A program made the translations under genes and the position numbers. From positions 16,930,545 to 16,994,544 of the forward strand of contig NC_088790.1 in the NCBI RefSeq assembly GCF_949628265.1: a stretch of DNA of 64,000 nucleotides, in the 5' to 3' direction. Below the pieces are notes generated by a model, which was given only the letters and a program-made list of their open reading frames with translations, was not told where the DNA came from and did not search any database. This document shows, piece by piece, positions 4,639 through 7,404 of this stretch (position 1 is the stretch's first letter; each line of letters starts with the position of its first letter). This DNA comes from Cloeon dipterum. Its lineage: Eukaryota > Arthropoda > Insecta > Ephemeroptera > Baetidae.

Positions 4639-7404
4639 ATGGGCAACACACCTACAGTTAAAAAGGGCAACGAACCTCAGGAAGCGTCAGGTAGGAATGG
4701 AGCTTCGCAAGTCGGTAATTATGCCAAATTTATATATTTTACCATATTTAAAACTCTCAAATTCAGTCAAGGAGTTCTTGGAAAAAGCTAAGGAGGATTA
4801 TGAAGAAAAGTGGAAGAGAAATCCTTCGGTAAGGTGTTCAAGTTTTTAATATGAACTTGTCCTTAAGCCCTGGTATTATTTTACATAGAATACAGCAGCG
4901 TTAGACGAATTTGACAGAATAAAAACCCTTGGGACAGGATCATTTGGCAGAGTCATGTTGGTGCAGCACAAAGCCTCCAAGGAATATTACGCCATGAAGA
5001 TTCTAGACAAACAAAAAGTACTAAATCAAGGATAACTATTCTTTCCTGGCTAATTTTCCTTCTCAGGTGGTGAAACTTAAGCAAGTAGAACACACTCTGA
5101 ATGAGAAGAAGATCCTGCAAGCCATCAGTTTCCCATTTTTAGTCAGCCTTAAGTTCCATTTCAAGGTATTATCTATCTGTAAATTTGAACGAGTTTGTTA
5201 GATTTAAATGTTTTATATCTAGGACAACTCAAACCTCTACATGGTATTGGAGTATGTACCTGGAGGCGAGATGTTTTCTCACCTCCGCAAGGTGGGCCGA
5301 TTCAGTGAACCCCAGTCGAGATTCTACGCTGCACAAATTGTGCTTGCTTTTGAGTACCTCCACTACCTGGACCTCATTTATCGAGACCTCAAGCCAGAAA
5401 ACCTGCTCATCGACAACACAGGTTACCTGAAGGTGACGATGATGCCAAATTCACAATTATGAAGGATGGACCTAAATTTATTTGTGCCTGCAGGTGACTG
5501 ATTTTGGTTTTGCTAAAAGAGTCAAAGGCAGGACGTGGACTCTTTGTGGAACACCAGAATATCTTGCACCTGAGATCATCCTCAGCAGAGTATGAAATTT
5601 TAATTTATAGATTAAAATAACTTTAAAATATTTTATAAACGAGGATGAGTAGACTAAAGTAATGCAGGGGTTAATTAAGTAAACTGTCTAATTTGGTCCG
5701 GCAATCTGTTAAAAGAAAAAATACTCAAGGCTAGATATAAAATTTCAAGTTCTTAGTTTATAAATTTTGTGATCAATTCCCTAATTATCTCAAAGTTTCG
5801 TGGATCTGTGCCATTATGAAGTGCAAAAATCCTAAGTGTTACAAGTCTAATAGTATCAAAACTAATTTTGAATTAAATTCTAGCCACTTACATGAAAACC
5901 AAGCAGCTTAAGTCTGTTTTTCCCCCAGATAATATTAAATCATCAAAACATAATATGAATTTTTAAATATCTGAGAATTAAATAATAAAATTATTTGACA
6001 GGGATACAACAAAGCGGTCGATTGGTGGGCGCTAGGCGTTTTGGTCTATGAAATGGCAGCAGGATACCCGCCTTTCTTTGCTGACCAGCCTATTCAAATT
6101 TACGAGAAAATTGTATCTGGAAAGGTGAGTCAGTCATATTGAGCAACAATCGTTTCTAAATCTCGGCTAATTATATAGGTTCGCTTTCCATCACACTTCA
6201 GCTCGGAACTGAAAGACCTGCTGCGCAACCTGCTTCAGGTTGACCTCACCAAGCGTTATGGCAACCTGCGTAACCACGTCAATGACATCAAAAACCACCG
6301 CTGGTTCCAGTCCACTGACTGGATCGCAGTCTTTCAAAAAAGGGTTTGTCGCTTGTTCTTGTCAGCTTTGCTTGTAAATAGCAATTTTTCCGACGCATGG
6401 TCGTTATTTTAGTTATTTTTTTTTATTCCTTTTGATTATTTTACAAACTTCCTTCCACCTGTAGCAGGAGTGCAAGTATAATAACTTACGCATGATCATG
6501 ACTGACCACGCATTGTGCAGGTAGAGGCGCCGATGCGACCGAAAGTGCGCTTTGCCGGTGACACGACGCACTTCGCCGATTACAAAGAGAGCAGTTCATT
6601 GTTCGACATTTCAGCGACGCCTATGTTCACTAACGAATTTCTTGATTTCTAACACAATCACACTCCTACACATAACTCTTGTTCAACTCGGCTCCTGCAT
6701 GCTTTTTGGTTTGTTTACTTTTTCTTCTATTTTATTTTACCACTTCTAGTTAGTTGTAGAGTATCTTAAGGCTAGTGCTTTATTATTTATCTGTGAATAG
6801 GGGACAAAATATCTGTTAGGTAGAGCGTAGAGCTGTACATAAATTATTTTATAACTCTGCTCCGAGCTAGATTTTTAGCGATTCTTTGACATCTTTTATC
6901 ACAGACTTTGCAGCTATTACTCACGTGTTTTTTTCTAATTTTGCCTGAGGTGACATCATACCATTGTTACCTGATCTTATCTATTTGAAAAGAGATATCC
7001 TGATTTGCAATCAGTTAATTAATTAGAACCCCTTAAAGAAAACCAAGATTTAAAAGCCGTGAAATTTATTTCATGTAATTACTGGAGGAGACGATCTTAG
7101 TTAAGGAAATAATTAGATTGATCAAATCAGCACTTTTTGGGCCCTTTTGATTAAAACTTTCCATATCGGTGCCTATCAGTTTTTACTCAATCTTGGAATA
7201 ATTCTAATTAATACATTTTCCCCTAACTAAACTCCACTGATTTTTCCTCTCACTCACATCAATCATTTTGAAATTCAGGTGGAAGCACCGTTTGCTCCAC
7301 GATGCAAGGGACCAGGGGACACAAGCAACTTTGACGATTACGAAGAAGAAGCCCTGCGAATATCTTCCACCGAAAAGTGTGCAAAGGAGTTTGCCGACTT
7401 CTAA
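4639..7404 (+). CDS. Pka-C1: cAMP-dependent protein kinase catalytic subunit (PKA-C), canonical C-terminal isoform
   Basis: Serine/threonine kinase released from regulatory subunits by cAMP. Exons: 4639-4690, 4767-4828, 4889-5017, 5067-5165, 5223-5432, 5494-5589, 6002-6124, 6179-6343 and 7279-7404, all GT-AG and in phase, giving 353 aa, the length of Drosophila Pka-C1. The N-terminus MGNTPTVKK carries a myristoylation-type Gly2. The glycine loop is LGTGSFGRV (52-60), the ATP-binding lysine is Lys75 (YAMKIL), the catalytic loop is YRDLKPEN (Asp169), the metal motif is DFG (187-189), and the activation-loop threonine is Thr198 in [11 protein letters not shown]. The canonical tail reads [14 protein letters not shown] and ends in the hydrophobic motif FADF. 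The penultimate exon ends in AGG|GTTTGT and can join either of two last exons (see 6521-6652). Identification is certain; orthology to Pka-C1 rather than another PKA-C paralogue is very likely. Confidence 0.97.
6521..6652 (+). CDS. Pka-C1: Alternative last coding exon of PKA-C (different C-terminal tail)
   Basis: Preceded by a clean acceptor (TTGTGCAG|GTAGAGG) and in the same phase as the canonical last exon, this exon encodes 43 residues plus stop. It opens with VEAP like the canonical tail, keeps a GDT-x-x-F-x-D-Y core (GDTTHFADY against GDTSNFDDY) and ends NEFLDF, retaining the F-x-x-F hydrophobic motif. It therefore looks like a tandem duplicate of the canonical exon at 7279-7404 that diverged, giving a 355-aa isoform. 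It lacks the acidic EEE run and the STEKC segment, which includes the region of the turn-motif phosphosite. No EST support can be seen here, but the intact frame, acceptor, phase and stop argue against a relic. Confidence 0.8.
   Translation, partial: VEAPMRPKVRFAGDTTHFADYKESSSLFDISATPMFTNEFLDF

Follow-up and report, generated by a model that had tools for sequence, protein, structure and literature searches.

A putative alternative last coding exon for the C-terminal tail of a protein kinase A catalytic subunit in Cloeon dipterum

In the window, i.e. the whole stretch of 64,000 nucleotides of Cloeon dipterum analysed here, a complete gene for a catalytic subunit of protein kinase A (PKA-C) lies at 4639-7404 on the plus strand, for which splicing in silico gave eight coding exons in common and two candidates for the last one. 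We consider it quite probable, judging from sequence, that this is a functional gene with a tandem-duplicated last exon, and that the proximal copy, exon 9a, is a real coding alternative to the canonical last exon 9b; exon 9a is presumably spliced and translated. The two tails share the anchors by which the PKA tail is held to the kinase and differ in an acidic patch, in length and in the surroundings of the turn motif.

Gene structure and identity of the kinase

The following coding exons, all on the plus strand, make up the gene:

4639-4690, plus strand: coding exon 1, 17 residues, matching MGNxxxxK, the PKA-C1 signature given in extracts from PMC12608923
4767-4828, plus strand: coding exon 2, 62 nt
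4889-5017, plus strand: coding exon 3, 129 nt
5067-5165, plus strand: coding exon 4, 99 nt
5223-5432, plus strand: coding exon 5, 210 nt
5494-5589, plus strand: coding exon 6, 96 nt, preceded by the one intron whose position recurs in the paralogue on contig C2
6002-6124, plus strand: coding exon 7, 123 nt
6179-6343, plus strand: coding exon 8, 165 nt, the final shared exon, ending in phase 0 with ...AVFQKR
6521-6652, plus strand: exon 9a, putative alternative last coding exon, 43 residues, phase 0
7279-7404, plus strand: exon 9b, canonical last coding exon, 41 residues, phase 0

Spliced to 9a the gene encodes 355 residues and spliced to 9b 353, each frame being uninterrupted and provided with its own acceptor and stop. 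The introns are GT-AG introns, and every one after the first is in phase 0. The initial annotation had proposed a PKA catalytic subunit with two last exons of the same phase, each with its own stop, and the open spliced frames together with the kinase matches bear this out, coordinates of both exons included.

A kinase domain was detected in the product (Pfam PF00069, E 2.1e-72), and in a search of PDB, among the best 60 of 137 matches, the first 56 were PKA catalytic subunits, fused ones included, with E values to 2e-187. The 9b form contains the core of 335 residues that is described as the rule for PKA-C, with rare exceptions listed, in extracts from PMC3625193, and 275 of these 335 residues are identical to human C-alpha. 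The gene is a PKA catalytic subunit of the PRKACA/B type. Its exon lengths presumably agree with those of the human genes, except that two exons are fused, with one human intron missing.

No Rfam family was found in the window at gathering scores. Two other coding candidates were seen on the minus strand of the window: a JmjN exon at 1134-1265 (Pfam PF02375, E 2.3e-8), which stands head-to-head with the PKA gene and in which, we assume, a KDM4-like demethylase probably begins, and an open frame of 192 amino acids at 62527-63105 with many hydrophobic stretches, for which Pfam gave no match at E up to 0.01 and which we take to resemble the pore end of a TRP-type channel.

The two tails and their splice sites

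Exon 9b encodes a canonical tail, 30 of its 41 residues being the same as in human. Exon 9a begins with GTxGAx in the same phase as 9b; 19 of 41 aligned residues are identical between the two and 22 differ. Identity of 9a with other tails amounts to 18/41 for the second PKA-C gene on contig C2, 17/41 for human, 15/41 for a distant PKA-like gene on C1 and 15/43 for a PRKX/PKA-C3-like gene on C4, where the gene labels are our own reading of the sequences. The two exons are adjacent, homologous, in the same phase and each longer than the seven residues that extracts from PMC9741552 set as the minimum for tandem-duplicated coding exons, and they would make a substitution event of the C-terminal class if they occur in distinct coding transcripts.

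With residues numbered as in mammals (V310 to F350, anchored on 1atp_E), 9a keeps Pro313, Pro316, Gly322-Asp-Thr324, Phe327, Asp329, Tyr330, Glu332, Phe347 and Phe350, and thereby VEAP/PxxP, GDT and F-x-x-F as well as the two anchors Phe327 and Tyr330. It carries Thr for Ser325, His for Asn326, Ala for Asp328, Lys for Glu331 and Ser for Glu333, by which FDDY becomes FADY and the acidic run EEE of 9b becomes KES (FADY-KESSS); the STEKC segment is replaced. A proximal tail that has diverged in just this way, with VEAP, GDT-F-x-D-Y and F-x-x-F retained and the acidic and STEKC segments exchanged, had also been described beforehand. Because FDDY and the acidic run are altered, 9a is not classed as a canonical tail. 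Its 43 residues depart from the usual 41 by one insertion of two residues, the sole length change and one of exactly two codons. In the turn-motif region 9a has gained Thr-Pro (340-341) and lost Arg and Cys; two residues before 338 Asp stands for Arg, and Ser338 itself is retained if the gap is set before it, a retention that depends on this placement, in surroundings that are changed in any case.

The features that bear on the choice between both exons are:

6344-6349, plus strand: donor 8, AGG/gtttgt, serving either tail; weak, score -0.7
6465-6520, plus strand: stretch with competing acceptor-like sites at 6465 (score 3.5) and 6468 (score 5.0), 53-56 nt upstream of the 9a acceptor
7150-7155, plus strand: ATTAAA, possible poly(A) signal of the 9a form
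8567-8605, plus strand: cluster of ATTAAA/AATAAA, possible poly(A) region of the 9b form

The splice-site scores derive from a rough matrix. On this scale donor 8 is the third weakest of the eight donors of the gene, only donors 3 and 6 scoring lower, and the acceptor of 9a (-1.5) with its poor pyrimidine tract is the second weakest of nine, only acceptor 2 being lower, while that of 9b reaches +0.7. Both acceptors had been called clean, which is generous for that of 9a. A branch-like CTGAC is found at 6502-6506, its A lying close, 16 nt upstream of exon 9a. Joining exon 8 to 6465 or 6468 would add 19 or 18 residues, respectively, before a TAG. The ATTAAA at 7150 is the single site between 9a and 9b for the six poly(A)-type hexamers scanned.

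RNA pairing was considered as a means of governing exon choice and dismissed, the one inverted repeat across 9b being at shuffle level (one seed, compared with an average of 0.96 over 300 shuffles). With a stop at the end of both 9a and 9b, the arrangement is best termed one of alternative last exons; of the mutually exclusive tail exons first proposed, the two last exons stand, and strict mutual exclusion is without support from RNA structure.

Coding character of exon 9a and rival readings

The in-frame codon usage of 9a scored 0.265, against 0.284 for 9b, which is itself part of the small training set of 15 open frames and 3,699 codons. All of 288 overlapping stop-free stretches of nearby sequence, presumed to be noncoding, remained below the score of 9a (maximum 0.131), and a fraction of 0.0008 of 5,000 stop-free shuffles reached it. 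Between 9a and 9b the bases at first, second and third codon positions are identical in 24, 26 and 11 of 41 codons, where about 11, 11 and 10 would be expected of unrelated sequences; third positions thus agree about as often as chance would have it, the first two being retained (NG86: pS 0.96, pN 0.37, nonsynonymous divergence 0.51). The comparison of 9a with the C2 tail shows a weaker contrast (23, 25 and 20; dN/dS about 0.6), perhaps in part due to GC-rich third positions (GC 0.60 in 9a, 0.76 in C2 and 0.49 in 9b), and relaxed constraint on 9a is possible.

When the genome (190 Mb, 10 contigs) was queried with 9a preceded by the last residues of exon 8, which contribute part of the score, nine places were returned, namely 9a, exon 8, 9b, the C2 tail, the C1 tail and four weak ones. 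Exon 9a was found once, and beyond the window gene the best matches fell on the tails of two further genes of PKA-like type. When the 9a tail alone was compared with PDB, all 56 sequences obtained at E up to 10 were PKA catalytic subunits or fusions (best E 0.052); Pfam returned no family for it at E up to 1. The Pfam family Pkinase_C was absent from the full 9a form and detected below the cut-off in the 9b form. Viral contigs yielded three pattern stretches for the 9a tail and 13 for a longer piece, with no relatives among either, in a collection without animal genomes where absence is uninformative; a collection of genome contigs, likewise without animal genomes, gave 41 pattern stretches and two distant kinase-like loci in bacterial MAGs.

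Codon usage, kept motifs and the open frame speak against 9a being a chance frame or a dead relic, the latter of which appears unlikely. The reading that comes nearest to the latter, in which the duplicated last exon is decaying and has stayed open by luck while 9b alone is used, seems improbable to us; it could draw on the 22 residues by which the exons differ, on the weak 9a acceptor and on the dN/dS of 9a against the C2 tail, and it is opposed by a length change of exactly two codons and by a frame-0 codon usage beyond that of every noncoding stretch compared. As the 9a-9b divergence by itself does not assign constraint to a branch, an unconstrained 9a was simulated in 40,000 runs at each of 0.3, 0.4, 0.51 and 0.6 substitutions per site, starting from 9b rather than from a reconstructed ancestor and with indels uncounted. 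In fractions of 0.014, 0.0025, 0.00025 and 0.000125 of these runs, respectively, an open frame and its stop survived along with nine or more of 12 family-invariant residues, which also tells against decay, if least so at 0.3 substitutions per site. Retention at the invariant columns (9/12, against 10/29 at the other columns) is mildly above expectation (Fisher P 0.02), and with a smaller reference set it is 9/13 against 10/28 (Fisher P 0.047).

Exon 9a might also serve mainly for a non-productive or regulatory transcript, either as an alternative 3' end or through a truncated kinase made via 6465 or 6468, with the protein of little matter. The higher scores of these two sites in comparison with 6521 and the ATTAAA at 7150 would agree with such a role, which we nevertheless regard as very improbable, given that it leaves the kept PKA tail anchors and the coding-like codon use of 9a unexplained. 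Least credible, and scarcely to be expected, is an origin of 9a from the tail of another kinase gene, e.g. the PRKX/PKA-C3-like gene on C4, instead of from 9b: the C4 tail does have 43 residues like 9a and exceeds the remaining PKA-C tails in the comparison by two, but 9a is most similar to 9b in the identities given above, if by small differences, and shares with it both phase and GTxGAx start. The length of this C4 tail, encoded on the minus strand (L030), was noted in its own right, its sequence being different from that of 9a.

Predicted consequences, related genes and known systems

If 9a is a coding alternative last exon, the weak donor after 6343 would be joined either to 6521, giving a kinase with a variant C-tail, or to 7279, giving the canonical kinase; the choice would be made by splicing, possibly coupled to that of the poly(A) site, with one tail and one stop per transcript. 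The 9a kinase is expected to be active, because the PxxP tether to the C-lobe, Phe327 and Tyr330 of the ATP site and the hydrophobic F-x-x-F are kept, though one Asp of the FDDY motif is replaced. It would differ at the acidic patch past Tyr330, at FADY, in the longer linker and in the turn-motif region, and may thereby be altered in its recognition of basic substrates and inhibitors, in RII packing within the holoenzyme and in tail phosphorylation. Glu331 helps to bind the substrate arginine at -3, and Lys in its place would be expected to weaken the binding of basic substrates and PKI. Given its altered surroundings, the turn motif may be phosphorylated by another enzyme. Conservation of the tail is strong across the animals covered in extracts from PMC3625193, and parts of PMC6143667, PMC8144671 and PMC13167742 assign it a role in ATP binding, in maturation and in the packing of the holoenzyme. 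According to the first of these (PMC6143667), Phe327 lies in the ATP site, Tyr330 has a role in the closed form, the PxxP motif is at 313-316 and PDK1 docks on the N-lobe tether; in the second (PMC8144671) RII beta packs onto the C-tail opposite, and the third terms the FDDY motif at 327-330 'essential' (PMC13167742).

A second PKA-C gene with four coding exons and a canonical tail is present on contig C2 (L025, 4281-7781), of which 306 of 335 core residues are identical to the window gene and 276 of 335 to human. One of the three introns in its coding region, 507 nt before the coding end, is at a window-gene position. Its N-terminus, MGNSATSQ..., does not strictly follow MGNxxxxK. The same contig bears a short COX1-like fragment (G000:C2:8963136-8963273; E 2.3e-6, under the family cut-off) with two stops, perhaps a mitochondrial insert. 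The window gene is likely the copy of ancestral layout, as it keeps the multi-exon structure, and the C2 gene the intron-poor copy. The C2 layout is nearer to that of insect Pka-C1, yet not single-exon. The tail of insect Pka-C1 (honeybee and fly) is canonical and ends in ...(D/E)F, like 9b. PKA-C isoforms have reportedly been described in ticks (Amblyomma), and alternative C-termini of Caenorhabditis elegans kin-1 were reportedly treated by Gross in 1990 and Tabish in 1999.

At most one close PKA-C homologue per invertebrate examined, a single coding exon in insects and the vertebrate exon layout in Daphnia are reported in extracts from Søberg et al. (2013; PMC3625193), with which two close PKA-C genes of very different intron layouts in one genome contrast. 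The single coding exon of insect PKA-C1 (PMC1769443 and PMC3625193, in part) is found in neither gene, the window gene having eight introns in each of its nine-exon transcripts, besides two tails, and the C2 gene three. The name insect Pka-C1, which had been given to the window gene, is thus uncertain: it is the window gene that fits MGNxxxxK, whereas it is the C2 gene that is intron-poor and canonical-tailed, as set against the single coding exon of the insect genes (extracts from PMC3625193). Genes of the PRKACA/PRKACB type in vertebrates, sea urchin and Daphnia are multi-exonic with a core of 335 residues, as is the window gene with 9b (PMC3625193, in part). Human PKA-C genes vary the first exon and have exons 2-10 in common (extracts from PMC3625193 and PMC5526564), whereas the window gene doubles the last one and gains two residues in the 9a form.

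Many splice isoforms are known of C. elegans kin-1, with 13 exons and at least 12 isoforms (PMC9692727, in part). In decapods, passages of a paper from 2025 (PMC12608923) distinguish the four PKA-C isoforms C1, CD1, CGLY1 and CGLY2, consider an origin by splicing and leave open whether they come from one gene; this documents PKA-C diversity in arthropods, but the types are set by their N-termini and, with N- and C-terminal lengths unequal, an alternative tail exon is not described in these passages. A like layout is that of oyster alternative oxidase (AOX), an unrelated enzyme whose last exon, exon 10, is likewise duplicated in tandem and alternatively spliced at the 3' end, the proximal copy being changed round functional sites and the distal one more conserved; both forms were seen there as stress-responsive mRNAs (extracts from PMC5589949). 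Swapping of C-termini by tandem-duplicated exons is already a known class, to which 77 of 236 human events belong in extracts from PMC9741552, a paper whose main text lacked the five PKA-related terms looked for. Arthropod PKA-C with alternative tails was not named among the titles and abstract beginnings listed from open-licence literature, which is weak evidence of novelty.

A further reading, which we hold to be doubtful, is that an animal lineage, probably of arthropods, retained the ancestral PKA-C gene of many exons alongside an intron-poor copy, and that the former became a splice-switched kinase exchanging its tail and not, as in vertebrates, its N-terminus, with reversed charge in the acidic patch on the substrate side, a Thr-Pro turn-motif region and thereby perhaps a distinct range of substrates, RII partnership or route of maturation. 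If 9a is used, the gene would be a natural experiment, within one gene, on what the PKA tail encodes.
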